Source: Plumapathes pennacea
Taxonomy: Eukaryota; Cnidaria; Anthozoa; Antipatharia; Myriopathidae
Length of the DNA: 64,000 nt
NCBI GenBank assembly: GCA_964036295.1
Contig: OZ038469.1
Span: 5,968,067-6,032,066, forward strand
Reading direction: 5' to 3'
Part shown: piece by piece, positions 33,301 to 58,697 of the stretch
Position numbering within the stretch: the first letter of the stretch is position 1
Layout: each line of letters begins with the position of its first letter
The notes under the pieces: generated by a model
Told to the model about the DNA's origin: nothing
What the model saw: only the letters and a program-made list of their open reading frames with translations
The model's database searches: none
Position numbers and translations under genes: made by a program

Positions 33301-33888
33301 CATGAATGTATGGCACTGCAGTCAAGAAGTCTGTGATCGCATAGATGAAGCACCCGGACCCTATGGATTTATGTCAGCTCATGTGACACCTAGACCAGGT
33401 AACTATTAGAAAAAGAAATCGCATGAACAATGTTTGAAGTGGAAGAATTATATGTAACATATACTGTTATCAGCAACTGAGACATTTACAAAATTTGTAT
33501 TTATAATTGTTTACTAATACAATAATTGTAAAAATTATTCATAAAAACAAGAAAGTTTAAAAATATTGTATAGAATTTTAATGAAAAGCTATCTTCTTTG
33601 TCATTTCCATAGATTTCCAGTTTTTTTTACAACACACCTTACCTGGTACAGTACCACCAGTGCCATGCGGGAGCGAAAAAGGAAACCATGCCAGGTCACA
33701 GCTACTTCCAAAAGATAGAGACGTACATGGGCAAACACTTCGAGGAGGGAGAGAATTACAGGGAATTTGTGAAATTTTCATGCGAAGGAGAGGTAGGAGA
33801 ATTTTGTACTTTTTGCAATGAATGGACTGGGCCTCCAATTACAAGGTGTCCTAAGCCATCTCCCGACCATTCCTGTCTCCCCGAGTAT

Positions 33889-36800
33889 TAAATGGCGGAT
33901 CTCTTGACGACTCCTCAGGCAGCGAGGGTAATTATGATAACCATCCCTATTTTGACCTGGGCTTTGACAACAAAGGATTACGCATTGGCCACTGGAACAT
34001 AAATCGCCTGACATCCGCGAAATTCGACCAGATAAAACTGTTCCTGACTGGAAAATTCGGAAGGCCTCAGCTTGATGTCATGTTTCTAAACGAGACTTTT
34101 CTCAAGCCTGACATCCCAGACTCACTTTATGCTGTCCCGGGTTTTTCTATCTACCGTCGTGATAGATCGTCAAAGGCTGGTGGAGGAGTCATGGCATTCG
34201 TGAATGTCGAACTCATCACGAAACGTAGAACCGACCTCGAATCTGCCGAACTGGAAACTTTATGGCTAGAGATTTTTCCGTTCAAGTCCAAACGGTCTCT
34301 CCTGCTATCAGGGATCTACCGCCCGCCATCTCACGCCAAAAGCGACGATCTGAAGCTGGAAGAAAACATCGAGAAAGCTTACCTGGTTCACAAAGAAACA
34401 ATTTTATTGGGTGACTTTAACATCGATAGTATTTCCAAAGGGAGCTACAGTAAACATCGCCTATGCAAATGGTTGAAAACCATGAATTTTAAGCAGTTGG
34501 TAAACGTTGTCACACGCCCAATTAGCGGAACTTGTTTGGACCATATTTACACTAATCATCCGGAGCATTTGAAGGACGTCAGAACAATCGAAATTGGCTT
34601 ATCGGATCACCTGCCGCTGTTTGTTTCACGCAAATACAATCAAAGGGTCAAAAACAACAGTCAAAGGGCCCGCTTCATACGATACAGGAGCATGAAAACG
34701 TTCAACGAGGAGCTTTTTAAAACAACTTTAAGACAGGCCCCGTGGGACACAGTGTTCCTTTTTGACGACGTTGACGATATATTGGACTCCTGGGAACAGC
34801 TACTCATTGACGTGATTGACATCCACTGCCCGTGGCGAGAAAAAAGAGTCTCTCGGCCTAGGCAAGCGCCTTGGATGAATAGAGCTGTTTTATCACAGCT
34901 ACAACTCAGAGATGCCTGTCTCAAGACTGCAAGGTCCAGAAACACTTGTGATGCCTGGTCCAAGTACAGAAAAGAAAGAAACAAAGCGGTCGGTCTCGTG
35001 AGAACAGTAAAGCGTGAGTACTACACCAAAGTTTTCGCAGAAAACAAAAACAATTCGAAAATTATTTGGAAAACCATAAAATCATTAACCGGATCTGCTA
35101 AGGGCAAACAACCAGTCAACAGTATCAGAGATGGAGCAGATACTACGGACGATGTGAGACGCATAGCAACAAAGTTCAACCAGCATTTTTCAACTGTAGC
35201 AGAGCGTCTGAGGTCGATCCTTCCAAATGTTCCACTCAACATGGATAAGGTGACAAAGTTCGTAAATTCAAAGAAAGCCTCCGAAGTAGCCTTTGTTATC
35301 CCTCCTATCAATGAGTCCAAGGTGAGAATCAGTCTCTCAAAAATCAGCCCTAACAAAGCAACGGGTATTGACAAGATCAGTGCCCGATTACTACGGACTG
35401 CCGCTCCTGAAGTTGCTCCATCTATTACCAGGATCATAAATCACTCATTGGCGACTGGCGTGTTCCCTCGGCAATGGAAGACTGCAAGGGTTACTCCACT
35501 GTTTAAAGGCGGAGAGACTGACGAACTATCGAACTACCGGCCAATTTCAGTCTTGCCTGCAGTATCTAAAGTGATCGAAAGGCATGTACATGATTCCTTA
35601 TACGGTTACCTAACAACAAACAATCTGATATACCTCCGGCAATCAGGTTTTCGAAAACGACACAGCACAGAAACAGCCCTTATTCAAATCATCGACGAGT
35701 TTCTGTTGAACCTCGACCAGAACCGAGTAAGTGGCGTAGTCATGGTGGACTATTGCAAGGCGTTCGATATGGTTGACCACAATATTCTTTTGGACAAATT
35801 GGAGATATATGGGACCAACAGTAAATCGCTGCAATGGTTCAAGTCCTACCTAACTGACAGAAGCCAGCTCGTAACGTTAGCTGGTACCGACTCAGACAGA
35901 GCAAGCGTTAAACACGGAGTACCACAGGGTAGCATCCTTGGCCCTCTGTTGTTTCTGGTGTACATAAATGATCTGCCTTTACACGTCAGCTCTGCAAAGT
36001 TGGACCTATTTGCTGATGATACAACCGTTACTTCGTCTGCGGCTCACAACGATGCCATAAAACTGCAGGAATCTCTGAACACAGCCCTCACTGAGTTATC
36101 GGACTGGGCAGTTGCAAACAAGCTGCCTCTCAATGAAAAGAAGACTAAGGCCCTAATGATAACCGGAAAACGGCTGTCCACCAAACTAAACTATACCCCG
36201 GTACTAACAATGAATGGAAAACAACTGTCCAGTGTTCCAAATGCAAAGCTTCTTGGACTTGAAATCGACGAAAAACTCACATTTGTAGCTCACGTAGATA
36301 ACCTCTGCAAAAAGCTTTCTCAGCGCATAGGGGTATTAAGGAAAGTCAGAGCCTTTCTTCCTTTACAGCAGAGGATTCTATATTATGATAGTATGATTAG
36401 GCCTGTTATGACCTATGTAAGTGCTATCTGGACATGCTGTGACCAGGAAAGCCTAGGGCGAGTACTGAAACTGCAGAAGCGTGCGGCAAGAATAATTCTA
36501 AACACTTCTAATCAAGCCCCGTCAGTAGAATTATTCAATAGGTTGAAGTGGTTGCCATTTTATGAGGAAGCTAAGTTAGCCAAGTGTTTCTTAGTATTTA
36601 AGCGACTCAAAGGTGAAGTTCCCTCTTATATCACCAACTTACTTAAGCTCAATAGTGACCTACACTCTCGCAAGACCAGATATTCCAATTTTAATTTAGT
36701 TTGCCCCAGATTTAAGTATGAATCTGACGGAGGCAGATCGTTTGGTGTATCCGCCTGTCGGCTGTGGAACTCCTTGCCATTGGCGCTGCGTGAAATTGAG

Positions 36801-37064
36801 TCGTTTACTGTTTTTAAACAATCTTTGTGGAACTATTTTTTTAATCAACAGCAATTTTTGAACCATTTCATAGTGTAGCTTTTTATTAGTATGTTATCCG
36901 TGTAGATAGATGTAGTTTTTATCCATTGACCTTGTTAATACCTTTACTTTAAGCTTAGATTTTTTAAAGAATTGTTTAGTATATGTATGTAGAGGGCCAC
37001 ACGTTTATTAGCTCTGCTATTATGTGCTACCCTCGTTAAATAAAGATATTACTTACTTACTTAC
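33889..37064 (+). mobile_element. CR1/L2-like LINE inserted in the transposase-like exon
   Basis: The exon reading ..CLPEY stops at 33888 and resumes at 37065-37068 with HYLPYKD. The repeated TAT (33886-33888 and 37065-37067) is the target duplication. The insertion starts near the beginning of ORF2, so it is 5'-truncated and lacks ORF1. It ends in a (TTAC)n tail typical of this clade. This is the youngest layer of the nest. Confidence 0.9.
33892..36878 (+). CDS. LINE ORF2: apurinic endonuclease + reverse transcriptase
   Basis: The frame is open from the LINE start through to a TAA at 36876-36878; the first ATG (34080) lies inside the endonuclease domain, so the true start was lost by truncation. 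Endonuclease signatures: HWNINRL, MFLNETFL (catalytic Glu), GIYRPP, LLGDFNID and GLSDHLPLF. Reverse transcriptase: NYRPISVLPAVSKVIERHVH, QSGFRKRHST, DYCKAFDMVDH, GVPQGSILGPLLFL and LFADDTT with the catalytic Asp pair. A C-terminal region (CRLWNSLPLALRE) typical of cnidarian LINEs follows. No stop or frameshift was seen in about 990 codons, so the insertion is recent. Confidence 0.92.
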
Positions 37065-39390: not shown

Positions 39391-39881
39391 ATACGATATT
39401 CCCAGATAATCCCACGCCCATGTAATCGGTTTTATTTATAATTATATCTATATCTATAGTTCCTGTTTGAAGAAATTGAATAACCATTACCCAGTTTATA
39501 ATTAGGCGTTAGTTGAAGGAAAACTACATCGACATGAAGTAACCGGGAACGGATGATGCGTACGCCTTTTGCGTGTAGAGAAGCGGTGCAGCATTGTGGT
39601 TTTCCCTTTTGTTGGTGTCGTTTTTCCCGACCGACGGAACGGATCATCTCTCTCTTGATGGCCTGGGGCGATAGCAATGGAGACGCGAGCGCACAAGTCA
39701 AATGGCAAATGCGCGGGAAATTTTGGCGCGGCCGTGCAAACGAAAAACAACAGAAAAGCTTTTGTTCCCGTGAGGAGAGTTGAGAGTTGAGGTAGGTTTA
39801 AATAGAATTGCTATTTTTTTCTGCTATAATTAACGACATACTATTGGTGGCCAGCCATAAACTTGTGCAGTACTGTTGGTG
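39391..39881. other. Spacer between polymerase relic and the next transposon
   Basis: No recognised gene. A 76-codon ORF at 39553-39783 has no known domain. The expected 3' half of the Polinton-type gene is absent. Confidence 0.5.
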
Positions 39882-40270
39882 CACACTAAATTTTATAGTG
39901 TAATATTACACACAGGAGAAGTGTAAATCTTGCAGCTGGGCACACTCTGTGCAAAGTGTAATTTTACACCAAAAGTTTAATTTTACACTAGGTGAAGTGT
40001 AAAGTAACACCAACTAAAGGTGTATCTTTACACCAAAAGTTTTACCCTTTATGTAGTGTATTTTTACACCATATATTGGGTAAATGTACACTTCATTCGG
40101 CGTAAACGGTAATGCAGCTGGGGGCACGCCAAAAAGAGTGTAAATTTACACTTATCCACATTTTACACTACAAGAGGTGTATTTTCACACACCTAAAAAG
40201 TGTAAATGGTAGATGGTGTAAAACACCGTCAAAAGTAAATACACTGTCAACAGTGTAATTCTAGATGTAA
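39882..40270. repeat. Left terminal array of TTTACAC / GTGTAAA motifs
   Basis: More than fifteen copies of GTGTAAA, TTTACAC or close variants in both orientations within about 390 bp, beginning with the CACACTAAA terminus. The pattern fits subterminal transposase-binding repeats. Confidence 0.8.
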
Positions 40271-40614
40271 TAATATTGCAATCCAAAAATCTCAAAACAC
40301 TACACACTGATACACTACCCATATTTATTCGAAATGAAGTATTTGTGACAGAGAATGTTTATAATAAAAATAGTATCTTGACTTAAACAGAGCCTTTTTA
40401 AATCGAAATTCAAGGACTTTTCAAAGACTTAAATTACCTGTTAGTCCAAGTAAAATTAATGTTTAGCATTCTATGAAGATGTTCACTTTTTAATCTTCTC
40501 AACTGACTGTATCAGAACAGTTTTCCTTGAAAGGCAATTGACTTGGTTTTTCAAGGCCTCATACAAATTCAAGGACTTGCCAAGATTTTACAAACTCTGT
40601 TAAAGTATAATACA

Positions 40615-43600
40615 TCACATGCCATTTAGCTCATTCGAAAAAGTTAACACTCTTGGTGGAGTTGGGGAGGAGTCAAACAGCTCCATCACATACTTTTGTA
40701 AAAATACAAAAGTGTTTTGACAGGACTTTGGGTAATGAATATTTAAAATGTAGTAAGAAATCAGCAAAGAACGAAGGGCTGCTAAATGGCCTCCTCTAAC
40801 TTTCAGCATCACTGTGGCCTCCCCAACCACAAAAAAATCATCAGGGCCAGGAAGGTCACCGACGATTAACAATACTGGAGGAGTTCCTTCCCCAATTCTT
40901 TCTATCCCATCTTTCAAAGTTGGTGCCACCTGTAAATACATACAGAAAATCAAAATAAATGGCTAGTCTCACATTAAAAAACAATAAACAATAAAACAGT
41001 ACACAGTCAAGTTTGGTTTAACAAACTCCGACAAAATAAAAGCACACATAAAGCACTCAATCAGAGACTGCATTTCATACTGTAAAGCCACAGTCTCTTT
41101 CTTTGGAAGAAATGTGTTTGATAATATACAGATAAGCAATATTTACCTGATAGAAAGAGCTGGCTGGGTTTGGGTTTTTTTTGGTCACTTTTTCCAACAC
41201 ATGAGGCAAAAGCAGCATAGCAATAAGAGCAGTGTCTTCTGCAAAATGAGATGAATTGTACTGTAAATTTTAAGAAATTCAACAGTGATAGATACATCTA
41301 ATGATACACAACTTTAATGATGGTGTATGGATAACATTACCCACATATTGTACCATAAAATACCATGATCCCATAAGGTGTTAACCACCCCCTCAAAAAA
41401 TACCACTCCAACCTACCTTTTGCCACATACCTGTAAACAATATATTTTCACATAAAGAATTTGAAGACCCATTACCTTTTTCATGCCTTTGATTTTGTTT
41501 CAACCAGTTAAAAAATGAACTGATATTTTCCACTGATTACACAATATCTTCTGCCATATTTGGCATCAATAAAAGATAGACAAATTATAAACAATTTGAT
41601 AGAGTATATAACATGCCTATTTAGTTATTTGCTGCCACTGGTAGATAGGGGTGGTGATACCTTAATAATTAAATCAATTATTGGATAACACTTGAACTGT
41701 AAGTGTAAATAACAAATTTAATAAAGTTCCACTGGTTTGCCATGGTGTGGACTCTTATTTACCGCGATTTACGTCAACACATGGTCAAAATGTTGTGGAC
41801 TCATGAGGCGCTTTGCCGAGTGAGTCCGCAACTAATTTTGACCACGTGATGACGTAAATCGTGGTAAATAAGAGTCCACACCACGACGAACCAGTGGAAA
41901 TTTGTTTTTTACCACAAAATTTAGAAATATACAGGAAACTTTCCTTATATTTCGCTGCAAAACGTGACATGCTGGCATCAGCTGGCGTCAGCATCGTTGT
42001 CTGGACTCTTATTTACCACGCTAAATCGACCAATCAGAGAGCGAGAAACTAGTGTGTTGTGGTAAAAATAGTTCTTTATGTTTTACTGTAACTAATGAGT
42101 GATAAGTGCATTAAACACTTACCATCAGTGTTGCATCCTAAGTCTTCCTCACACCTTTCCATTTCATCCCCTGCCAATAAATCTAAGATCTCTTTTACTT
42201 TGGGGTTCTTAGACTTGGTTTTCCCATAGTGAACAATTTGCGGCGCCAGGTTCAAAAACTTTTGCACCATCCTTGAATCCAAATTGTCCACTGCCATGAG
42301 ACGGGTGAACTCATTGCACATCTGAAATAAATAAGTACTTGATTCAGAATTTTATATAAATACTCTTTAGACCAATTAGGGCAGTAACTACTCTTAAGTC
42401 TTATTTTTGCACAGTCATGTTGAGGTCATCTAATAATAATTTGTACCAGTACACTATATTATAAGTGTGACAGCGAGAAGTGATTACATCAATCTTGTGA
42501 TGGTTACAGATATCAGAGTTTCTCCACATGCACTTGTGGTTTTAATGGTACTTTTAAACATATATTCCTTACCTCAGCTTCATGAAACAGGAATGGATAC
42601 TCTTGCTTTATTTGTACGATAGTCCTTCTTTCATTATTCAGAAATTTCCTTCTGAAGGAGTACGTCAAGTCCATTTTTTCTTTAATGCCGGCAGGATCAA
42701 ATTCCCCTTTCTTGAAGTTCTTCATCATTGCTTTCACATTAACTCTGTGGGAATCTTCATTTTCCCCCTGAATTGGAGGTGGCTCCCAGAAAACCACTGA
42801 TCTCTTGACTGTTTTCTGCATGGGTGAAACCTTTGATGCCCCACTTGCTTTCTTTTTGACACCTTCATTAGGTGAAAGATGGTATATCTCGTTTTTAAAC
42901 TTGTTGGTTAGAAAGTTGTACCAAGAGTCCTGAGAGGAAAAGCAACAAACAACAAACAATAAAAATAATTTTCTAAATTATTTAGAGTTTTCCTACTCTC
43001 AAAGATGAGTAAACTTTTTCCAGAACTTATGTATGTTTGTCATTTTTGGTGTTTAACCATTGCAAAGGAAGTTATTCCAAACCCTGGTAGATTTATATTG
43101 TAAAACATGCACTGTGTGTTTCCCTGACCAAATCAAACATCAAAATCAATGCAAAAACCACCCAGAGATTCATCTGAATGGTCCTAAAACTGTTTTTCAT
43201 TTGATACAGTGGAACCTCCATTAAGGGGACATCCTCAGGACAAAAAAAGTGTTCCCTGAATGGAGGTTATCAATAGCAGGATTATATGAGCATTTTTGTG
43301 GGGGGGACAAGGCCAAGTGTCCCCTTAAAAGAAGTGTCCCCTTATTGGAGGTGTCCCAAAGTAGAGGTTCCACTGTAGTTCATATTTTAGAAACGCAAAT
43401 TGCAATGAAAGGTTAGCCAAAACACCTACTCTGCTGTTAAATTGACTTGCAATCACACAAATGCCTATCACTATCAGTAAGACACTGTCTGCAAAAACAC
43501 AAAAACCCCAATTTACATACATAACATCCAAATGCATCTTTCTGTTCCGGATACTTGCGCACAAGTTCCAAACAAACTTCACGCCGCTGGTCAGTGGTTG

Positions 43601-44415
43601 GCTTCCTAATTTGAAGAAATGAAAGACAGATTATTTAACTTTATTGCACAGAATTAGTGTTTACATGTTTTCACTTATAGTTACTTTAACAAAATTTAAT
43701 AATTTACGATAGAACTCAACTAAAATAGAGCAAGTTAAATTTATGTTATACATGATTGTGATTTGGGGAGTACTGGTACCAAGAGTTTTTTTAGAAATGT
43801 GCAATTCTTACAGTATTAGAGCTTTTTAACAACGACAGTTAACAGTTACTTCTTTGGTTTTGCCAGTCAAGAACAAAAACAAAATCTTATGCAATATTCT
43901 TTTGTTCAAAATTCTTATTGGTTTCTTCTTCAAAACCAAACAAAAATACAATATATTTTGAATCCAACTAGTGATTTTAAGTAGAGTCGAACCTTCCTAT
44001 TTTGAACTCAGTTAATTTGAAGTCCCTGCTATTTCGAAGTCAAGCCAAACCCCTTGGATTTATTTTTTCAGTTCACTTATTTACTACCTGCTATTTCAAA
44101 ACTCTGCTATTTCAAACTTCTTTTCATGTACCGTGCGACTTTGAAATAGTGGGGTTCAACTGTAATTACTGTAGTAATCAATAATACTAATAAGTTGTTC
44201 TGAATTTTGTATGCTAAACCATAACTTACGCTGTAAACTTGAGGATGTACTCATAGAGGACGCGAATAAGTTTTCTTCTGAGAGGTTTCATGCCTTGAAG
44301 GTTCTGCTTCCTGTCAAGGGCCTCCTGAATATCAGGAGGAAATTCAGGAAGGACAAATGGACAAGGCCAACCTTGACATACCACTTTACTAGTAAACTTC
44401 TGTCCAACCACCTTT
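40615..44415 (-). CDS. SAMD3-like protein (transposon-borne), six exons
   Basis: Exons in transcript order with GT-AG borders: 44230-44415 (CPFVLPEFPPDIQEAL), 43521-43605 (REVCLELVRKYPEQKDAFG), 42573-42929 (SWYNFLTNKFKNEI, EYPFLFHEAE), 42123-42321 (MCNEFTRLMAVDNLDSRMV), 41147-41238 (LLPHVLEKVTKKNPNP) and 40615-40929 (PPVLLIVGDLPGPDDFFVV, ISYYILNIHYPKS, TFVFLQKYVMEL, then TGA). This order of blocks is that of fish and cnidarian proteins annotated as sterile alpha motif domain-containing protein 3-like. The SAM domain itself is not in these exons but lies upstream at 46.3-47.2 kb on the same strand. No stop was seen inside these exons. Biochemical role unknown; a DNA-transposon accessory function is possible from context. 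Introns hold three MITEs. Confidence 0.75.
41712..41910. mobile_element. Hairpin MITE with ~95 bp arms
   Basis: The left arm (TTCCACTGGTTTGCCATGGT..) and the reverse complement of the right arm (TTCCACTGGTTCGTCGTGGT..) match almost throughout, giving a near-perfect long hairpin around about 41810. It lies in an intron of the SAMD3-like gene. A related half-copy lies at 13785-13830. Confidence 0.8.
43205..43377. mobile_element. MITE with perfect TACAGTGGAACCTC ends
   Basis: The termini TACAGTGGAACCTC and GAGGTTCCACTGTA are perfect inverted repeats of 14 bp including a TA pair. The inside repeats AAGGGGACA/TGTCCCCTT. This type is widespread in animal genomes (mariner-like, TA duplication). Confidence 0.85.
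43983..44165. mobile_element. MITE with AGTcGAACC ends
   Basis: The left end TAGAGTCGAACCTTCC and the right end GGGGTTCAACTGTA are imperfect inverted repeats. Inside, CTATTTCGAAGT/CTATTTCAAA words recur. Non-coding, in the first intron of the SAMD3-like gene. Confidence 0.7.
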
Positions 44416-44526
44416 CTATAAAACAGAAATGAAAAACCACAATTCAAAAACGTTAATCTTTAATCTATTTAACAATAACATACAGCTGTGTTGTGTATTT
44501 TTCAACATCCTGTCTCAAAATGTGGT

Positions 44527-45592
44527 TCACAAAGATTCCAAAAGAGACATGAGTGATGATGATGAGCATCGTTTACAAATTGAAGTTATGCAGCACCTAT
44601 ATACAACTCTTAAAGCTGGCACTTCAAGTTCATTTGAAAGTGATTTGATAATCCGGCCCACTGAAAATACATCACTTTGAATAGAAGGTGGGTGACTGCC
44701 TTCGACAACTTCTGGTGCAATATGACGATGGTTTACCAGGTACATTTTCTTCTCATTATCAGATAATTTTTTGCTCTTAACCTCAGAAAATTTCCTTGCC
44801 TTGCCAAAATCAATCAGGACTGGTGAATATCTGACTTCCCCTGATTCCTTTGCAACAACAACATTATCTGATTTGATGTCATTGTGAAGAATCTTCTTAT
44901 TATGCAAGTAGCATGTGGCATCTACCAACTGCTTTAAAAAATCAATACAGTTGTCTTTCAGTCAACCTCTTACAGCAATTTCTTGATCAGTAAGAACTGC
45001 ATGAAGGGTGACTGATTCACCACTTATGCCATAAAACTGAGTTATAATAGAAAATGGAGCGACTTTGCTAGCCACACCAAACAAAAATGGCAAACATAGA
45101 TGCTTTAAATTTGCTAAAATTTGGGCTTCCCTTAAATCAAAGACAGCTGAATTAGAAAATTCTTTAACAGCAACTGGAGTGTCTCGGAAATTCATTAGCT
45201 TGCATGTGCCAAATCTACCTGCCCCAATAAACTTCTCGCCACCCTTTGGACAAGCAAGCAATTCCGGCGGAAGCTCCAGCAGCTCAACAGGTGTAGACAA
45301 CTTTCCAGGAATACTTAAAGTTTTGCACCCACTTAGTCGAGAATCAAGCATAACATTTCTTGAATTTGTTATTTTCCTCTTTTCCTCTTCTGCTTTCCTC
45401 CTCATACTGAAAAACTTATTTTCTGTGCTCTTTAATTGTGCACTAAGCATTGAAACCTTTTTCTTTTCAGATTTCAGTCTTTTTCCTAAAGAATCTATCT
45501 TAATTCGCTTTGAACCCAGCTTTGGACCTTGCTTCCTTTTCCGTAAATTTCTTGATAAGCGTTGGCGGCGCCTTGCCTCACTTGACTTACTT
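44527..45592 (-). pseudogene. Protein kinase, single long exon, one nonsense codon
   Basis: The exon begins after an acceptor at 45593-45595 and runs about 355 codons to a stop at 44527-44529. A basic coiled-coil N-terminus (about 110 residues) is followed by a full kinase domain: glycine loop IGAGRFGTCKL, VAVKEF (ATP-binding Lys), REAQIL (helix C Glu), HNDIKSDNVV (catalytic loop with Asp, Lys and Asn; Asn replaces the Arg of HRD), LIDFGKAR (DFG), HIAPEVVEG (APE) and SDVFSVGRII. The only damage is an in-frame TGA at 44962-44964, between the N- and C-lobe halves. All catalytic residues are present. It resembles multicopy TKL-like kinases of cnidarian genomes. It sits between the SAM exons and the SAMD3-like exons on the same strand, inside the 12.7 kb transposon, so it is probably cargo of that element. 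Whether it is spliced to either neighbour is unknown. Confidence 0.8.
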
Positions 45593-45703
45593 CTGTAGGT
45601 GGCACACAAGAACAAAATAATACATTATGTACACATACACTGGTTCTTTCCCTCATTCTGTAGAGTTGTGTATTGCAAATACATAAAAAAGTGCTTTTAT
45701 TTT

Positions 45704-46062
45704 CAGGGCAAAGCAGTCCAAATTGATTTGAAGTAAAAACAAATGCTTCAATTTAGCAGGCTTTGTTCCATTCTATGGCACTCATTAACAGGCTGGCGAA
45801 CAACCTGAATGAGCTGTTGGTAAAAGGCGGGCGAACCACCTTACCAACTTACTGGATATACATCCAGCGCCATAGTCAGGGCAAAGCAGTCCTAATAGAT
45901 TTGAAGTAAAAACAAATGCTTCAATTTAGCAGACTTTGTTCCATTCTATGGCACTCGTTAACAGGTTGGCAAACAACCTGAATGAGCTGTTGGTAAAAGG
46001 CGGGCGAACCACCTTACCAACTTACTGGATATACATCCATCGCCATAGTCAGGGCAAAGCAC
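45704..46062. repeat. Tandem repeat, 173 bp period
   Basis: The string CAGGGCAAAGCA recurs at 45704, 45877 and 46050; the two full units between are nearly identical (CAACCTGAATGAGCTGTTGG in each). The third unit is only a start. It lies between the SAM-domain exon and the kinase exon. Confidence 0.9.
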
Positions 46063-46272
46063 TCCCAAATTGTATGAATTGAAAAAAAATGTTTCATTTT
46101 ATTCATTGTCATTGATGTCAACTCAAGTAAAAAATTGCTAATTATGCAACAGTTAAAAATTTAGCAAATCAAATTATTCCCTTTTTGCAATAAACAATAA
46201 CTTGAAATTTCACGGTTGGAAGGCCATGCGATTTGCAAATTAGCCTGCAAATTCTTAAAATATAAACACGAA

Positions 46273-47174
46273 TCACTTAACTTTAGCTGCTTTAGGTGGC
46301 GCGGCTGTTGGCGGGGTAATTGGCAACGGCCTGATGTCCATGGTAATATTTTCCTCAGCTTGGCTGGGAACATCCTCAAGGTCAATGGGCGCATTCTTGG
46401 GTGTACTGGGTGCATTCTCGGGCGTTGGAACCCGACGTCTGGCTCCCCGAATCTTCACAAACAGCTTGATCCGGTCACCAATCGAGGGAACAAGAAGTTC
46501 GGCAATTCGTTCGTTGTTCAGATCCACCATACCCACCAGCGCTTCGCCATCGATCCCTTGTTCTAAAAGGAAAAAAAAAAGGAACTAGTTAGTGGTTAGT
46601 GGCTTTAAACAGGGATGGTACAAACAGGAAGAGAAAACCAAAAGCGCACGCGAAAACAGCAAGTCCGTTGTGATCAAGGATTTGTCCTGAACGGCAATTG
46701 ACAGGCCCATTCCACTCGCGACCAGGACCTGCCACGTGACTCGTTTTGGCGCGAAAACCGGAGCGACGAGCTTTAACCGATATTTTAATCACATCAATAT
46801 TTCTGTGGTAAAACTTTAGGTAAGAATAATATGAACTATAAGTTAAATAATTTCATGCGAGATAAAGTCCTTCTTCCCAATTATCTTACCACGTGGCAAG
46901 TCACTGCCGACCAGCACCGGGCCGCCAGCTCTATATACTACTCAGAAATATCCAGTGAACCACTCAATCCGTCCAATCAACCGACTCATGCACAAACTGA
47001 AAGCTAAAAGCGCACGAAATGTGTCTGGATTTTTAACAAACTGCGACAAATAAAAATGCGAAGACATTAAAGTTTAAAGCCGAACTCACCGTAAAAACGC
47101 TCTGCGTAAGCACCAAATCCATCTTCATTCATCCATGCCTTCACAGCCTCTCTTGATGCCGGTGGAAATTCCAT
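46273..47174 (-). CDS. Small SAM-domain protein, two exons (transposon-borne)
   Basis: Exon 1 is 47090-47174 (ATG at 47174-47172; MEFPPASREAVKAWM) and exon 2 is 46273-46562, ending in TGA. The join keeps frame and gives about 124 residues. Residues 8-65 form a SAM domain: KAWMNEDGFGAYAERFYGE, then GIDGEALVGM, VDLNNERIAEL and SIGDRIKLFVKI. A Pro/Glu-rich tail follows (RRRVPTPENAPSTPKNAP). SAM domains mediate protein-protein or RNA contacts. The 3' neighbours on the same strand are the kinase and the SAMD3-like exons; an alternative splice joining them would rebuild a SAM-containing SAMD3-like protein, but no such donor is evident before the stop. Start codons of this gene and the transposase-like gene are 301 bp apart, divergent. 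Confidence 0.7.
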
Positions 47175-47475
47175 GGTCAAGACGTTAAAAAGTAAAGATG
47201 AAGTTGCAAAAGACAAGCACGAGACGTAGTTCTTCACAGCACCAGAGTGGAATACCGAAAGGGAAGATTTTTTTTTTCTTTTTGAAGCAGTGCGGTGCGG
47301 CCTGCAGTGCACAGTACCGCAGACATCCCATTGGAAAAAAAGGTGAGAAAATCTCCCAGATGCTTTCTGATTGGGACGTTCTTTTCCGGTGACAGTGGGC
47401 AGTAGTTAAATAACAATAGAGACTAAATCTCCCGCGAATCTATGACGCGCGCGGCAAAGTTCAGCCGGCGTGCTG
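47175..47475. promoter_or_regulatory. Divergent spacer inside the 12.7 kb transposon
   Basis: Lies between the SAM-gene ATG (minus) and the zinc-finger ATG (plus). It should hold the promoters of both units. No core motif is evident; an A/T run lies at 47269-47285. Confidence 0.5.
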
Positions 47476-50400
47476 ATGTATTCTTGTTATAAAGTCGAAT
47501 GCGATCACCTCGAGTTTCCTAGTCTAAAGAAGTTACTGTGCCACATTCGAGCGAGGCATTTACACGAGCCAAACTTCACGGTGACCTGCGGCTTAAACGG
47601 ATGTCAACGATCGTTCAGAGTCTGGTCTAGCTTTACATCTCACCTTTCGCGAAAGCACAAAGATGTTGACTTACACAAGGAGGTCAATGCCGTCGAAGCT
47701 GATGAAGATGAAAACTATGATGTTTGCATGGACAGCGACATAGACGACGACACTTGGAATAGGGACGATGAAGATATTAACGGAGATCAGGATCGGCATG
47801 AGCAGGCAAAGAGAACTTTGGCTCTTTAAAAGCTTAAAATGACAGAAGTCCACAGACTCAGCCAGATTGCTATGAACAGCTTGCTAGATGAAACAATGCA
47901 TCTCGTAGAAAGTTCAATAAATCATTGGAAGCGTCAAGTGAAAGGATGTCTTAATCAAGCTGGTATAGGCGTGAATGATGTAGACGGACTATGCGATATC
48001 ATGGAAGAAAAGCCTGCTATAACGCAAGTAGCAAGTGAGTTCTCTAATCGGAAAAACGTATCTGTTGGAGAACTTGAGCCTTGTGGTAAGTTGGCGAAAG
48101 ACTGGACCCCAGTTTAACTTTCTCTCAACTGTCTGAGTTGGGCCTTAGTTCATGTACATTCCGTTTTTTATAAATGTTTTATATCTCTTCGTTCTCTTTT
48201 AGGAACCGGAAGAAGTTGTATTGGGAGAAGAAATTGTACACGCTTTTAGAAAGGGACGGCGAATTCTCAAAACACGGAAGGATACATTCCAGTACATTCC
48301 CTTGACCAAAGTGCTTGAAAGGATGCTCAATCAACACGACGTTTTTACACAAGTGCGTGTCACCGGTTTGCTTCCATAGTTTCTGCCGAATTCATCATGA
48401 AGTATTATTTCGTTTATTTATTTATTTACCTATTTATTTAGATTCTATTTTTTTCAATTCTTTTTCAGGTGCAGAACTCCCACAAGTCGAATGACAACAA
48501 ACTGAGGGACTTTTGTGACGGAGAATACTTTAGTCGCCACCCACTGTTCTCGGTTGTTGCCCATGCACTTCAGTTGCTCTTGTACTTTGATGATTTTGAG
48601 GTTTGCAACCCACTTGGATCAAAAACAAAGAAACAAGATCAGTAAGTTCTGTATGAAATGCCTCTTTCCCAGTCACCACTTTGTACTTCTTTCAATTCTC
48701 TCTGCAATATTTTTCTTATTACAAAATCTTCGAAACTTTGATTTTATGGTTGTGTTTACAGTTAATACCAAGTTGGGAAGGAGGGGGGGTGGCCAGCTAT
48801 TTTAAAAATGACCTGTGTGTTTTTATTGCATCCAAATTGCATGCATTTACTAGTTTTGACAGTGTGTTGTCTTTCAGGTGCCTTCTACTTCCTTCTTGGT
48901 AATTTAGGGCCAAAGTACCGTTCCACATTAAGAGGGATACAGCTGGTATCCTTATGCCCCACAAGGCACCTCACAAAGTATGGGATTAATCGGATAATCC
49001 AGAGATTTATGGCTGATGTTCATATGCTTGAAATGGTACATAATATCTTAATAATTTTACAACTGTGCTGGATCAGTTAGCAAACTCAGCAAAGTCTTTT
49101 ATGGCAATAACTGTCAGTTGTGTTGCAGTTTCATATGAAAACTATAACCTACAGTGTTGATTGTGTTATTTTTCTTCAAGAGAGGAGGTGTGCAAGTAGA
49201 GATTGCCAATCATCCCACCTTTATCTCTGGAACCATTGCACAATGTCAAGCTGACAACTTGGCCAGTCATGCTCTTGGTGGCTTTATGGAGAGCTTTAGA
49301 GCCAACAGACCATGCAGATTTTGTATGGGAAAACTAGAAGATTTTCAAATCAGGGTATGTAAACAGTACTATATATGTTTTGAGTGAAAGTACATAATGA
49401 AAACACCCAAAGTTTCTTAGGTGTGTGCAAATGTTTATTTCTTGGTTCTGTTTAGTTTGTGGAAGAAGAATACCAGCCAAGAACATTGGCAGGGCATTAC
49501 CATCAACTACAGCAAATAGAACGTGATCGAGACCTAAGGACTGCCTTTGGAATAAGCAGGCCTTCCATTCTGAACACATCAGAATACTTCCATGTAGTGG
49601 GTGGCTTGTCTGCAGATGTCATGCATGACATACTTGAAGGAACCCTCCCACTGCATATCAAGTGTCTCCTCAAAGCTTTGGTGGCAGAGGAAAAACTTTT
49701 TACGATAGAAGACCTCAATAAGGCAATGGACAGGTTCCATTTTGGTGACAGTGATGCTAGCAACAAGCCTACCCATATTCAAACAGGAATTGTGAATTCC
49801 TCTGACAGCTCAATGAAACAATCAGGTGCAGTAATTAAACTAGAATTTTCAATTTCCTCAACAAACATTTTTACTCCATAAAAACAGTGCCATGTCAAGT
49901 CACATGTATGCAACCTTTTAGCATGCTTCCAAAACATAACGACTACATACTGTAGTGTGTTATAACTAATAAAGTGATTTGTTTATGTTAATGTAACGGC
50001 TTCTCAGACATGGTGTTTGGGAAGACTTCTTCCTCTCATCATTGGCAACATCTGGCAACTGTACCTAGACCTGCTTCAGATTGTCGACATTATGTTTGCC
50101 CCTGTGACAAGCAGAGGCCTTCTTGCTTACCTGAAAGTCCTAATTGCTGACTACTTGAAAGACTTTAAAGAGCTGTATCCAAACCGTCCACTGATTCCAA
50201 AGCAACATTTCATGGTGCATTATCCAAAGCTGACACAAATGTAATTCACATTTCCTGTACTCTCTAATTAAGGTTTAGTTGTTCACACTTAGATGTTTGT
50301 AGTGTTGCCCATGTGCTGTAAATGTGTGTGTTTGTGCATCCTATTAACGTTGTTAAATGCAGCCATTACAAGAATTAAAATGCTTGAGAACAACTTTGTT

Positions 50401-51440
50401 TTACTAACTATACAGGCTTGGACCATTTGTTCGACATTGGTGCATGAGATTTGAAGCCACGAATGGTTACTTTAAGAGGCTGACAAGTGGTATGTTCAAC
50501 TTCAAGAATGTGTGCAAGAGTCTAGCTGAGAGACACCAAAAGTTGCAGTGTTACCACATGAGCAGTAATGGAGCCTTGCTAAATTCTGCTCAGTTCCTTG
50601 GCTCAGGTTTGGAGCAATATATGTTACATAATTTTAATAAAGTCATGCCTTATGTTTTGCAGCACAGAACAATAAGTGTAAATTATTTACATGTATGCAA
50701 GTTTTTGACTGAGATCACATCTCTAATCTGACTATGCTGAATTGTAATATTGCAAAATATGTGTGTTTAATGAAATAATAATAATGAATTTGAAGATCAA
50801 AGTTTACCATGCTCTATCATTATCAGGGGACACCCTCCATCTTGAAGACCTAGTTGATGATGTAGTGAGACTGCTTCAAACTAACTATGGTCCATTGCTG
50901 GATAACTCTATTCTTCAAGGTGGGAAAAATATGAAGAGAAACACTCATTTACTGGTACATAAACATACATATATGCACACATGCTTGTCCTAAAGTACAA
51001 AATAAACATGACATACATACACATACAGTTTAATAAATAGTGCATACATGCAACTTACACTGTTAATAGTCAACTGCTGTAGCTGTATCTTATTTTTTTT
51101 ACATATCTATTTTCTAATTAGGCCAAAACAAGTGGAACTCTATGGAACAGTTTACAAAGCTGGAGCTATTGTTGTGAAAAGTCATGATGGCATCATGCCA
51201 GTCTTTGCCAGAATTCTGACTATTTTGGTACTTCCAGGTTCTAGAATTGTATTTATTTGTAACAATTGTGTGACACAACGATTTGTACCACATCTTGGGG
51301 CTTTTGAGATCAATATTATGAACAACAAATGTGTTCTAAGTTATGAATCTTTTTATGACTACCACCCACTGGATCTTTGTATCATTCCTTATCAAGGGGT
51401 AAGGAAGTTTGTAAGGCCACGATACTGGATTCATGAGTAA
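47476..51440 (+). CDS. C2H2 zinc-finger, CACTA/EnSpm-type transposase-like protein
   Basis: Ten exons: 47476-48085, about 48203-48352, 48469-48641, 48878-49035, 49181-49354, 49456-49825, 50008-50240, 50416-50606, 50827-50919 and 51122-51440. Two C2H2 fingers open the protein (CDHLEFPSLKKLLCHIRARH and CGLNGCQRSFRVWSSFTSH). Later landmarks: DFCDGEYFSRHPLFSV, GPKYRSTLRGIQLV, CRFCMGKLEDFQIR, LSADVMHDILEGTLPLHI (an acidic motif shared with CACTA-type transposases), PKQHFMVHYPKL, MRFEATNGYFKRLTSG and a C-terminal RPRYWIHE. One TAA at 47827-47829 interrupts exon 1 in frame, and the first exon junction is out of phase, so this copy may be dead or exon 1 may use another donor. A degenerate second copy is at 21188-26662. 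The product probably moves the 12.7 kb element. Confidence 0.75.
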
Positions 51441-52234
51441 AACAATCCAAACTTGTTCTGGTACATGTATATTTTTAATTAGGAAAGTATTTTTACAGTG
51501 TAAAATTGCTGTGACTTGTATTATCTCGTGCACAGAGTGTATTAAAGTTGAGTTTTGAACACTACAATATTTCTGTGTAAGCTGTATACTTAATAAAAAT
51601 TCAAACTCAGACTGAAATTTTAGAGGATTAAATATGACAGCAAGGTACGAAGCAGTAATTGCTTTTAATGAATAAATGGTCCTCCATTACAGCAACTAAG
51701 AGACATGTTACGTACGGTTTGGGAGCTTATGAAACTATAAACATGGAATCACCATGAATTCTCGTAAATTCCTACCTCTCCTTTGTTAACAAGCCGCGAA
51801 GACATGAAAGGTCGAACCAAAAAATCCTTCAACGGTCCACTTTCACTCCCTCGATCAGCGGTCAAACAAATCGCCTGCGTCGATATTCTTTCATCTATAG
51901 ATTAATCCTATCACTCACAACCAGCTCTACAGCTTCATCGGTGCTCAAATAGTCCTACGCTATGATTTCGCAAAATGTAAACAAACGTACGAGTGAAGAG
52001 AACGTCCAAATCTGGCTTATCCTGTCGCGAAGGATGGCCTATATCTTGTTTGACATGGACAACCGCTGAACAATATTAATTTCACATGCAGTTTTCGTAT
52101 GAGCAATATTTTCCTGTCTGTGGGAGGGAAGTATATTTTGTGTCGCTTTCGACCACACTCGTACGAGAAGGTTATACAAAACAATATGGATTGCAGCAAT
52201 TTGTGAGAGAAATATTCCCTCAGAGTTGAAAATT
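51441..52234. other. 3' flank of transposase-like gene
   Basis: AT-rich non-coding sequence with AATAAA-like words near 51590 and 51675 that could serve polyadenylation. No gene was seen. Confidence 0.5.
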
Positions 52235-52564
52235 TACTCTGTCAGTATTGGGTTTAAAATTTACACTGTCGCCAAAAACAGTTCACACTGTAAAAGTGTA
52301 ATTATAAAGAAATGTTAAAGAAGCACTTTACACCAAGTTCAGTGTATTTTTTGTAGTACACCAAAAGGATCTAACTTTACACCCTTTAGTGTAATATTAC
52401 TCCAGCCACTTGGTAACTTTACACTTCATTGTTGTGTAAAATTACACTTTTGTAGTGTGGTCTTCAAAATTACACTAAATATAGTGTATTTTGACAGATT
52501 ACACCTATTTTGGTGTAATTGTACACTTTTTTGTGTGTAACTTTACACTATAAATTTTAGTGTG
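52235..52564. repeat. Right terminal array of TTTACAC / GTGTAAA motifs
   Basis: About 330 bp with many GTGTAA/TTACAC words in both orientations, ending in CTATAAATTTTAGTGTG. It is inverted relative to the array at 39882-40270. Confidence 0.8.
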
Positions 52565-52664
52565 TGGGAGTATTCTCACACCAACAGTACGTACAGTACA
52601 CGAGTATTAAACATGGCAGCTTTTGTTTACTATAAAAGTTTTGTTTAAAATTTGTTTTGTCAGG

Positions 52665-54452: not shown

Positions 54453-54781
54453 GTGAGGAGAACCTCAGAGAGTTGGAGATCTTCTCCGATCGCCTCGTGG
54501 ACGTTGTGGCCAAGTTGAAGGACTACGGCCATGAAAGAGAGCTTGGAGGAGTCTCGGCGCTTTACACAGTGGTCCAGCAGAAGATGCCAAAGTCACTACT
54601 CGTGTCATACCAAGGTTGGAGACACAGCAAACGCAAGAGAGATGGCCTTGCTACGTTTGCCAAGTGGCTGGCCAAGCAAGTCATTTACCGGTTGGATGCA
54701 GAGGAGATATGTGAGAGGCCAAGGAAAAGAGAAGTCCCAAAGGAAGAACCAGAAAGCGAGCACACATTCCACCTCTGCTGA
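54453..54781 (+). pseudogene. BEL/Pao gag fragment
   Basis: Encodes the C-terminal part of the capsid-type Gag (LRELEIFSDRLVDVVAKL, YTVVQQKMPKSLLVSYQGW). The N-terminal part is lost at the element's truncated left end. The frame leaves Gag near 54720 and is picked up by the next ORF. Confidence 0.75.
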
Positions 54782-56168
54782 CACTAAAGTGAAGTGTCCC
54801 ATTTGTGAAGGAGCCCATAAGATCGCAACTTGCAAAACCTGGAAGGAGACCCCTGTAAAAGGAAGATGGGAGCTGTCCAAGAAGCACAAACTCTGCTATC
54901 GCTGCCTGGGGCAGGGCCATTTAGGGAAGGCGTGCCGAGGAAGCAGTCGTTGCAATGTGGATTCCTGCGGAGGAACTCGTCACTTCCACTTGCATGTCAA
55001 GCGCCGAGAAAGTGCAGCAGAACCCAATAGAGAGGGGGAGACTGCCACCGCTTCCAGTTCGTTCGGGGCTACCGGAAACCACCTGAAAGTCCCAGAGAGT
55101 GTGATGCTGCGAACAGTCCCAGTCTGGCTCCTTGGAGCAAGAGGACGGAGGATCCAAGTCAATGCCTTCTTAGATGATGGCTCAGACACCATGTATGTCC
55201 GGGATGACGTCGCCACAGCACTGGGCTTTACCACCGGAGATGGCCATCTAAGATTGTCTACCCTAACAGACCATGACATACAGCTAAAGAGCAGAGCAGT
55301 CTCGTTAGGCATTGAAAGCCTGGACGGAACAATGAAAACCACTGTTCGAGCATGGACAATGGAAGAGATGTGCCATGGTTTACCGATCCCAAACTGGAAT
55401 CGACACAAGGCCCGCTGGGAGCATCTAAAGGACATTCCATTCCCAAAGGCACCTGGAAGAAGGACTGTAGATGTGCTGATTGGATCTGATCATCCGGAGC
55501 TAGGCTTGGCTCTGGAGGAGCGAGTTGGTTCACTTGGGGAACCCGTAGCCAGAAGAACCCCACTAGGGTGGACATGCATTGGACGCCTACCAGTGATGAC
55601 CCACAACCAGAGCACTGCCTATGCAAGGACCTTCCGCACCCAAGCCGTGCAGGATACCCATCTCGACCAGCAGTTGTATCGAATGCGGGAGGTAGATGCC
55701 CTGGGAATTAAAAGCCCAACTGCAGACTCGTTCACCCAAGAGGAGAGGCTGGCAATCACCAAAGCTGAAGAGTCAAGGCAGTGGAAAGGTGGTCGCTATG
55801 AAGTAGCGATTCCATGGAAGGCAGAGGTTTCGCCCCTCCCAGACAAAAGATCAGAGGCTGAAAAGCGGCTCAAGTCCCGTGAGAAGAGCTTGTTGAGGAA
55901 ACCAAAGATTGCAGAACGATACAAAGAGACAATGAACGCCAACGTAGAGAAAGGCTATATGCAGAAAGTTCACCCAGATGAGGTTAGCATGGGACAGGGA
56001 TGGTACTTACCACACTTCCCAGTCATTCGAGAGGACAAGCAAACAACCAAAATACGCATAGTCTTCGATTCAGCCGCCAGGTATAAAGGAGTCTGCCTGA
56101 ACGATGTCATGCTCACCGGGCCCAAGTTGCAGAAGGATGTCCTGGAGAGTTTGCTTCGTTTTCCCTGA
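54720..56168 (+). pseudogene. BEL/Pao zinc knuckle, protease and start of reverse transcriptase
   Basis: A Cys-rich block (CPICEGAHKIATC, then CYRCLGQGHLGKAC) is followed by the retropepsin-like motif FLDDGSDTMYV, here DDGS with one catalytic Asp. An RT N-terminal part has WYLPHFPVIRED and KIRIVFDSAARYKG. It ends at a TGA at 56166-56168; RT continues in another frame. Confidence 0.85.
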
Positions 56169-57449
56169 AGCCTGTAGCCTTGGTGGCAGACATCAAAGAG
56201 ATGTTCTCCCAAGTTGTTCTGGCTGAGAAAGACTGGCCGTATCACCGGTTCTTGTGGAGGGATCTTGATCTTTCCAAGCCACCTGATGTCTATGAAGCAA
56301 GTCGATTAACATTTGGGGACCGTGCATCACCTTACCTTGCCCAATTCATCATCCGTACACATGCCAAAGATCACCAAGAGGAGTTTCCGTTAGCCGCGGT
56401 GGTCATACTCCTGAAGATGTACATGGATGACGTTCTCGACTCGGAAGATACAGACGATGAAGCCACAAAGTCAGAGAAGAGTTGACGACCCTTCTGGCAC
56501 ACGCAGGATTTTAGATCCGACGCTGGTGTAGCAACAAAGCAAATGTCTTGAGGGATTCCTGAGGAGGACCTGGCCAACGAGTTAAAGATTGAGGAGTTGG
56601 AACTACCCAGCATAAAGACCCTTGGTGTCAGATGGGATGCGGCAAGGGACATGTTCCTGTTCACTATCAACGGAATCGAGAACTTCTCCTACACGAAACG
56701 AGGACTGCTCAGCCGCATCGCAACACTCTTTGACCCTGTACAATTCCCGGCGCCGTATGTCATCCGAGCGAAAATGGCCCCGCAGGAATCTTGGTTAAGA
56801 GGGCTTGACTGGGATGAGGAGTTCCCTGAGGACCTGTGCGGAAGTGTCCAAAGGTGGATTGAACAACTTCCAAAAGTGGCTGAGACCCGAATACCGTTAA
56901 ACCTTTTGCTGCGCACAGGGTATCAGAAATCCAGCAGAGGACGGACCCAAAACAATGGCGGCATGTGCCTGGGAAAGACAACAGTGCTGACGATGCGACC
57001 AGGGGACTCAATGCAGATGAAATGATAGCAGAGAGCCGATGGTTCCAGGGACCCACCTTCCTGCGGAGGAAGCATGGCCCCCACCCCATCACGCCACTGT
57101 GCAGGACTGCACCGAAGAAGCGGGAAGCGAATTGACCGTGGCCACACTGTCATTCCACGTCGGACAAGTAGAGTTGTGGATGGATCCAGAGACAGTTCCA
57201 AGTTGGCCTAGGCTGCTGAGAGTTACCGCTTGGGCTTTACGCTTCCTATCAAAACTCAGAAGTAAAGTGAAGGAACGAAGAAGCAAAACAAGCAGCACGG
57301 ACCAAAAACCAAGCTACCAGCCCTCCAATACTGGAAGAGCCTTGGATCCAGACGAGTTGGAGGTGGCGGAGCGGTACTGGATCCGACAGACCCAACTAGA
57401 ACGATTCCCTCAGGAAATGGAAGACTTTCACAAAGTAAAGACCTTGTAA
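56169..57449 (+). pseudogene. BEL/Pao reverse transcriptase and RNase H region, broken
   Basis: 56175-56485 has ADIKEMFSQVVL and the catalytic MYMDDVLDS. After a degenerate 100 bp with stops, 56597-57025 has KTLGVRWDAARDMFLF and GLLSRIATLFDPV, typical Pao-type RT connection sequence. 57039-57449 is a poorly conserved remnant of the RNase H to integrase linker. Confidence 0.8.
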
Positions 57450-57461
57450 AAGCAGAGCAGA

Positions 57462-58697
57462 TTGAAGAAGTTGACTCCATTTCTGGATCAACATGGCATC
57501 ATGCGGATCGGTGGAAGGCTGCAGAAGTCGAACCTGCTGTACGATGCTCGACACCCAGTGATTCTCCCAAAGAAGCACCGGATCTCAAGACTGATCATCG
57601 GTAATATTCACAAGAATGGACATCACAGTCGGGGAGTGAATTGCATTCTGACCGAGCTACGGCAAAGGTATTGGATCATTCACGGACGAGAAGAAGTCAA
57701 AAGGTGCGAGCGAGAATGCAACCTCTGTAAAATCCACAGGAAGAGCCAGGGGGAGCAAATCATGGCGCCGTTACCGGAAGCAAGACTGGGAACTCCCATG
57801 AGATGTTTCGCCCGCTGTTGTGTTGACTTTGCGGGGCCATTCGCGACCAAGGTGACCTGGAGAGTTTCTGCCAAACGGTACCTTTGCCTTTTCTCCTGCA
57901 TGGCAACACGAGCCGTACATTTAGAGATGGCCTACTCCCTTGATACCAGCAGTTTCCTGAATGCGTTTTCGAGAATGGTGGCAAGGCGAGGCAAACCAGA
58001 AGAGATGGTTAGCGACAACGGCACCAACTTCGTTTCAGGGAACAGGGAGCTGCGGGAATTGGTGGCCGCCCTGAATCAAGATAAGATTAAGGACACAGCT
58101 GCAACCGACGGTGTTCGATGGAAGTTCAATCCGCCAGCTGACTCCCACAATGGGGGAGTATTCGAAGCCTTGATCAAGTCAGCAAAGAGAGCCTTAAGCA
58201 CCATTCTTGGAAATGCGGATATCAACGATGAAGAGCTGCTGACCGCCATAGTTGAAACGGAAGGCCTGATGAACTCACACCCTCTAACATACAGCAGCAG
58301 TGACCCACATGACAAGCCGGCATTGACTGCAAACCACTTCCCGTATGGACAAGCAGGTGGGCAACTTGCCCCGCGAGTGACTGACGAAATTGCGTTCAAC
58401 CCCAGGAATAGATGGCGATTCGTCCAAGACTTGGTCGCAAAGGTGTGGAGAAGATGGATGAAGGAGTATCTGTCCACCCTGAATACTCGTGGCAAGTGGA
58501 TCGAGCAGAAGAGAGACATGACCATTGGAGACGTGGTCTTGATGGTAGACCAGAACGGTTTGAGAGGAAGTTGGCCCCTGGGACGGGTGTTGGAAGTTTT
58601 CCCAGGCTCAGATGGCCATGTCCGGGTGGTGCGTGTTAAGTCCTGCAGAAGAGAGTACACTTGGCTGATCACCAAGCTATGCCTTTTGGAGTTTTAG
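57462..58697 (+). pseudogene. BEL/Pao integrase
   Basis: An open frame of 411 codons. An HHCC-like zinc part (HHSRGVNCILTELRQRYW, CERECNLC) is followed by a DDE core: CCVDFAGPF (first Asp), MVSDNGTNFVS (second Asp) and FNPPADSHNGGVFEALIK (Glu). A C-terminal part with GDVVLMVDQNGLRGSWPLG follows. All three catalytic residues are in place, but upstream frames are broken, so it cannot be made as part of a normal polyprotein. Confidence 0.88.

Follow-up and report, generated by a model that had tools for sequence, protein, structure and literature searches.

What is a protein kinase doing inside a DNA transposon, and does it serve the element that carries it? The question is raised by a locus of Plumapathes pennacea in a 64,000-nucleotide stretch of contig OZ038469.1, the whole of which is referred to here as the window. 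On the minus strand, positions 44527-45592 form a single exon encoding a protein kinase with the main catalytic motifs. In the reading that we consider likely, this exon is a kinase module of a CACTA-like element and possibly an alternative exon of a SAM gene, and it belongs to a mobile family under selection that would act on behalf of the element.

The kinase exon and its element

The features of the element, by position in the window, are as follows.

39880..39881, plus strand: target-site duplication TG, left
39882..52564, no strand: whole CACTA-like element, 12,683 bp (12.7 kb), with inverted ends, terminal repeats and TG on both sides
39882..39914, plus strand: left terminal inverted repeat
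40618..40929, minus strand: SAMD3-like exon e (approximate)
42121..42324, minus strand: SAMD3-like exon d (approximate)
42567..42932, minus strand: SAMD3-like exon c (approximate)
43515..43610, minus strand: SAMD3-like exon b (approximate)
44230..44415, minus strand: SAMD3-like exon a, with a phase-2 acceptor; has a relative in the C4 and C10 elements
44527..45592, minus strand: kinase exon, comprising a basic coiled-coil segment (a coiled-coil helix in the predicted fold), the kinase domain and its own stop codon
44962..44964, minus strand: in-frame TGA that breaks the kinase and splits the N-lobe from the C-lobe
45703..46068, no strand: intronic tandem repeat next to the kinase exon, common to three other copies of the left end
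46277..46562, minus strand: SAM exon 2, with a weak, inferred phase-2 donor GTGATT; the read-through frame stops at 46273-46275
47090..47174, minus strand: SAM exon 1 (ATG at 47174), SAM_2 when joined to exon 2
47476..48084, plus strand: N-terminal exon of the transposase, encoding C2H2-like fingers (end approximate); zf-C2H2 below the Pfam cut-off
48206..51440, plus strand: remaining transposase exons, the CACTA-like core (a span, not one frame), homologous to a Transposase_21 protein
52532..52564, minus strand: right terminal inverted repeat
52565..52566, plus strand: target-site duplication TG, right

A preliminary description had reported a kinase with nearly complete catalytic motifs at 44527..45592, lying between SAM-domain and SAMD3-like segments of a CACTA-like element. 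The kinase is confirmed by its motifs and by a Pfam match of its C-lobe piece to PF00069 (1.6e-17, 64.2 bits; cut-off 31.7), and its position by the exon map within 39882-52564; the coordinates agree with a splice boundary and a stop codon, 45592 being a phase-2 splice acceptor by sequence. Beyond that description, we found that the kinase is interrupted by the TGA at 44962-44964 and that the N-terminal transposase exon has an in-frame stop codon (TAA, 47827-47829), so this copy of the element is dead.

The exon contains the motifs GAGRFG, VAVK, HNDIKSDN, DFGKA and HIAPE, so that by motif reading the glycine loop, the VAVK lysine, the catalytic Asp, DFG and APE of eukaryotic protein kinases are all present. 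HRD reads HND in seven of eight aligned family members, and HND and DFG are lost in L025, a member outside that alignment. Searched alone against Pfam, the N-lobe piece matched only PF07714 (0.0029, below that family's cut-off). With X at the stop, the best phmmer match among PDB sequences was B-raf (9.1e-10), and profile matches of the kinase family to PDB ranged widely over Tyr and Ser/Thr kinases, without pointing to a specific parent. A single-sequence fold with the TGA read as Arg had a mean pLDDT of 39.5 and was confident only in the coiled coil. Viral contigs searched with the window C-lobe gave no match; the family alignment found 14 viral loci at 20-43%, which we took for generic kinases and set aside.

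The inverted ends of the element match at 30 of 33 bases, and the motif TTACAC/GTGTAA is clustered at both. The left end recurs at five further genome places (94-95% identical), three of which were compared and are 99% alike; their mutual similarity ends where TA meets CACACTAAAA, and this divergence of three other copies from each other at TA and CACACTAAAA fixes the left boundary. The three copies also hold the tandem repeat of 45703-46068, within 1.6 kb past the left end, and may be non-autonomous elements. Among the 92 kinase matches listed for the genome, none falls at the five further left-end places. The 12-mer GTACTGTTGGTG occurs in inverted orientation just outside both element ends (39870-39881 and 52579-52590) and nowhere else in the window.

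Searched alone, the window transposase matched no Pfam family. Compared by hhalign with a Transposase_21 (tnp2) protein, its core scored 96.7% (E 3.7e-10, 394 columns). The core is 26% identical to the transposase of a second type, represented by loci E and M, over query residues 2-334, and the E-type transposase itself matches PF02992 at 5.2e-16 in Pfam; it is through this homology to the E/M type that the window element has a transposase of the tnp2/CACTA group. The relative on C4 and C10 starts exactly with CACTG and the window element with CACACTA. Target-site duplications are 2 bp long (TG in the window, TA at C4), with no clear one at C10; those of CACTA/EnSpm elements are 3 bp, or 2-3 bp by some definitions. 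The window element resembles CACTA/EnSpm (CMC) elements in its Transposase_21 (tnp2)-homologous transposase and repeats near the ends, and perhaps in its CACT-type inverted ends; its accessory SAM/SAMD3-like gene and kinase set it apart, and its 2-bp duplications and CACACTA terminus may do so too.

Other mobile sequences lie in the window. A long open frame at 33855-36878 contains endonuclease and reverse transcriptase domains and is a non-LTR retrotransposon. The frame at 37980-39313 matches Endonuclease_7 and by eye looks like a fragment that recurs beside the L028/L038 kinase copy. Retrotransposon-like frames occupy 54519-58697, where 57450-58697 matches rve (below cut-off) and DUF5641 and the first frame matches no family. 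At 22987-23175 (C8:5991053-5991241) there is a second, decayed match to the window-type transposase, at 33% and with one TAA.

The accessory gene runs on the minus strand, away from the plus-strand transposase, the two ATGs (47174 and 47476) being about 300 bp apart. The kinase sits in an intron of this gene, with the SAM exons on one side and the SAMD3-like exons on the other. Pfam recognised only SAM in the accessory gene, and only when the two exons were joined (SAM_2, 21.5 bits, cut-off 20.5; SAM_1 below cut-off); the window SAM sequence had no match among PDB sequences. The label SAMD3-like for the downstream exons follows the preliminary description and is putative. Vertebrate SAMD3-like proteins would share with this gene a SAM domain and a comparable region beyond it; the gene here differs in being transposon-borne.

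Splice phases suggest a mode of expression for the kinase. SAM exon 2 of the C4 copy finishes with AGC AG^GTGAGC (phase 2), matching the phase-2 start of the kinase exon and of SAMD3-like exon a. Both acceptors are in phase 2 in the window as well, and the donor, GTGATT, is weaker. The C1 element has a phase-2 donor, and inspection of its exon a revealed no clear phase-2 acceptor. No start codon precedes the basic segment in the frame of the window kinase. In-frame splicing could thus carry the SAM exons either into the kinase exon, which ends in a stop codon, or into the SAMD3-like exons, and the window kinase exon may serve the SAM gene as an alternative last exon. One gene would then yield a SAM-kinase and a SAM-SAMD3 protein.

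Related kinases and elements in the genome

The 290-Mb genome from which the window comes was searched with the kinase, giving 92 listed matches, a lower bound. The best-scoring matches other than the window itself, on C4 and C10, are 39% identical to it, each in an open 387-residue stop-to-stop frame; apart from the window itself, none of the 92 listed exceeds 46% identity. In both (L010 and L011), the order is SAM1, SAM2, kinase and SAMD3-like exons a and c, with the transposase beyond. The two elements are 99% alike across three pieces that span 9.8 kb, have CACTGCAAAAAATGCCGAGTAAA ends on both sides, and enclose kinase and transposase within common inverted-repeat ends on different chromosomes. 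The possibility that other copies show the same layout is borne out, in two copies of a second element.

A fourth element, at C1:13.95 Mb, has the transposase together with SAM exon 2 and SAMD3-like exons; no more than about 0.6 kb lies between the latter two, and the kinase is absent from it. This implies that the kinase is dispensable to a SAM/SAMD3 element. Of 715 residues shared by these elements, 520 are the same in C4 and C1, 319 in the window and C4, and 306 in the window and C1; in the other proteins C1 and C4 are 73% identical, and either is 43-45% identical to the window. Since the C1 proteins are nearer to those of C4, and since the window and C4 kinases are sisters in the tree (94/96) and lie in the same intron, the kinase was probably ancestral to the SAM/SAMD3 elements and lost in the C1 element.

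How often does the kinase accompany transposons? We mapped ORFs of the window type (at least 69 matches), the Tnp2 type (at least 69) and the unclassified J type (at least 65), and merged the matches by hand to 117 places, which include many fragments. Kinase-family loci were compiled by hand from 92 and 133 match rows, with neighbouring rows merged, giving 44 loci after removal of PF00069 places (save C6:16747010), the C3 array described below and a few weak rows, such as C1:22947891, C1:22941417, C1:19372760, C2:13354043 and C2:8932085. Control kinase places number 128, namely 133 PF00069 rows minus five (C6:16747046 and four second pieces of counted genes); they come from the best 129 of 1022 PF00069 candidates, so weaker kinases are outside the set. 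Distances between places are taken from start coordinates.

Fifteen of the 44 family loci lie within 10 kb of the 117 transposon-ORF places, against 0 of the 128 other kinase places. When loci were scattered at random over the same chromosomes (2000 trials), the mean was 0.40 and the maximum 3. For the 21 loci that head the kinase list, the count is 14. The remaining 29 of the 44 have no ORF of the three types within 10 kb; the match contains a stop in 22 of them and none in seven, of which only I could be placed in an element. Conversely, a family kinase occurs within 10 kb of 16 of the 117 transposon-ORF places. These counts support the view that the kinase is recurrent cargo of a minority of such places. 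The preliminary description had gone further. Its idea that the kinase could be standard transposon cargo is not supported, given the 16 of 117 places and the C1 SAM/SAMD3 element without a kinase, nor do the elements account for the number of kinases in this genome, where the 128 best PF00069 places, 29 of which belong to a single array on C3, are not near the ORFs.

In a tree of 13 family members and nine other kinases of the same genome, eight of which were picked by PF00069 score, one branch (100/100) separates the family from the others, although this nine-kinase outgroup could have missed a closer host relative. Eight of the 13 members lie within 10 kb of a transposon ORF; L013, L019, L020, L023 and L024 do not. 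A kinase array on C3 (14.0-16.0 Mb, L029-L037) comprises 29 PF00069 places, about 30-100 kb apart, with open frames of 260-308 residues; the members compared are 71-99% alike in DNA, and by eye we take them to resemble IRE1-type kinases. We rejected it as part of the family: L029, the sole member tested, is 16-26% identical and groups with host kinases. At C1:22933808-22948340, a J-type ORF has two weak kinase matches (27%) 8-14 kb away, which were not counted in the family.

Element ends were established for the window, C4, C10, I and J only, not for D, M, G and H; those of the E/F family were sought and not found. The I element (4435 bp, CA duplication) holds a kinase and no J-type ORF, and the J element (8613 bp, CG duplication) also holds a kinase; they share the ends CTCAAGTAGATTAAGG, and their kinase segments are 98% identical. 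J interrupts a retrotransposon frame, and joining its flanks restores a continuous reading, FDFTIIYRPGKSNGDADGLSQIPQ. Matches that cover most of the J ORF, mostly at 76% identity or more, are at C5:9.57, C1:16.53, C3:10.27, C12:6.30 and C2:25.11 Mb, and a kinase lies within 3 kb at four of these five. The J ORF matched no Pfam family. Its assignment to CACTA by homology was rejected, as hhalign gave about 0.1% to both types with shallow profiles (two sequences against one). By eye, though, an MHD...H...E pattern of similar appearance can be made out in it.

Among Tnp2-type copies, the distance between the transposase match and the start of the kinase is 1.5-2.8 kb in E, in F and in L018, a third copy that has decayed. 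The neighbourhoods of E and F (L014/L044/L045 and L015/L046/L047) share a segment of 470 bp, 98% alike, which lies right of the transposase on C4 and left of the kinase on C12. The kinases of J, M and F each have, by eye, their own basic, coiled-coil-like first exon, and searches of the E, F, I, J and M neighbourhoods for the SAM exons gave no match. The E kinase groups with the J group (96/96), and no homology was detected between the other ORFs of E and J. This kinship of kinases despite unlike ORFs hints at exchange between transposon lineages.

Selection on the kinase

The preliminary description had proposed dN/dS as a check, with values near 1 across copies counting against its proposal. 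We made simple pairwise estimates. In the one subfamily that is well measurable, that of J, they are not near 1: 0.20 for J-L022 (dS 0.565) and 0.21 for J-L026 (dS 0.584). L022 and L026 are about 80% alike to J in DNA, and each has a stop and indels. Estimates were 0.14 for J-E at dS 1.7, 0.135 for J-I on three changes and 0.16 for L014-L016 at dS 2.9; J-L023 and J-L027 are saturated, as are W-A, W-L012, A-L014, W-L014 and A-L012. Between the window and C4, silent sites are saturated (pS 0.82, pN 0.43; differences by codon position 0.49, 0.39 and 0.67).

Recent pairs range from 0.27 to 1.07 overall, on few changes. Across 1080 bases, the C4 and C10 kinases (A-B) differ by a single replacement and are identical at silent sites. 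The ratio is 0.56 for L014-L015, 0.63 for L020-L021 and 0.27 for L016-L017 (two changes). It reaches 1.07 in both L014-L018 and L015-L018, as expected for dead copies. Taken together, the kinase shows signs of purifying selection between element lineages, where this is measurable, and of decay in dead copies.

Proposed role of the kinase and alternative readings

The kinase module, a basic coiled coil with a kinase domain, is a component of a CACTA-like DNA transposon, and in this genome the family also rides a second CACTA-like lineage (the Tnp2 type) and an inverted-repeat element of unassigned class. On our preferred reading, it would serve the element, most likely as a nuclear kinase that targets either the transposase complex or restraining factors of the host, and the SAM domain or the coiled coil would tether it. 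More tentatively, and with less confidence than we place in the module itself, the family may be mainly transposon-living and have moved between unrelated lineages as an exchangeable transposition regulator or anti-silencing factor.

These observations could also be read as passive capture, in which random fragments of host kinases are picked up, as in Pack-type elements, and do nothing for the element. CACTA-type elements are well known to capture genes, the kinase in the window is broken, L018 gives a dN/dS of about 1.07 against L014 and L015, kinase-free elements exist, and most transposon-ORF places have no kinase near. Yet module and intron are constant between elements with kinases only about 40% alike, the kinases form one family rather than an assortment from the host, and a dN/dS of about 0.2 between lineages points away from capture, which we therefore hold to be improbable. 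Far harder to credit is a host gene family that piles up near transposons or is hit by their insertions. It could draw on the 29 of 44 loci without a nearby ORF of the three types, but different chromosomes hold 99%-identical copies in which the same inverted-repeat ends enclose both kinase and transposase, and I and J are bounded by inverted repeats and 2-bp duplications with the kinase inside; these element boundaries contradict such an origin for the C4/C10 pair, I and J.

Two further alternatives concern how, rather than whether, the kinase belongs to the element. It might be a nested gene, driven independently from a promoter within the intron and otherwise serving the element in the same way, as the basic first exons of the J, M and F kinases and the unmatched SAM exons around E, F, I, J and M would suggest; we think this rather unlikely for the window kinase, whose frame lacks a start before the basic segment and whose acceptor phase fits the SAM exon. 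A somewhat better case, though still short of an even one, can be made for counter-defence against host silencing instead of transposase regulation. One kinase family across unlike transposon ORF types suits a host target better than any one transposase, but the targets are hypothetical and a general effect on replication or repair is equally compatible.

The element has partial parallels. Pack-type gene capture is known from CACTA, MULE and Helitron elements, which likewise hold host-type genes within a transposon; here, in contrast to assorted fragments, the kinases form a single family, have an architecture in common and show purifying selection. In two other kinds of DNA transposon with a second enzyme as recurrent cargo, that enzyme cuts or modifies DNA, whereas the present one is a protein kinase. 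KDZ elements carry TET/JBP. KolobokP is reported to carry a homing endonuclease (PMC9587614). Among the papers listed by fixed-word searches of open-access PMC, no title or abstract opening reports a protein kinase as recurrent cargo of a DNA transposon.

In summary, some transposons of this genome appear to employ their own signalling enzyme. If this is true, some DNA transposons carry and maintain such an enzyme, which would tie transposition to control by phosphorylation and offer a direct route to asking how transposons deal with the host. Studies of the kinome would also be well advised to keep transposon kinases apart from those of the host.
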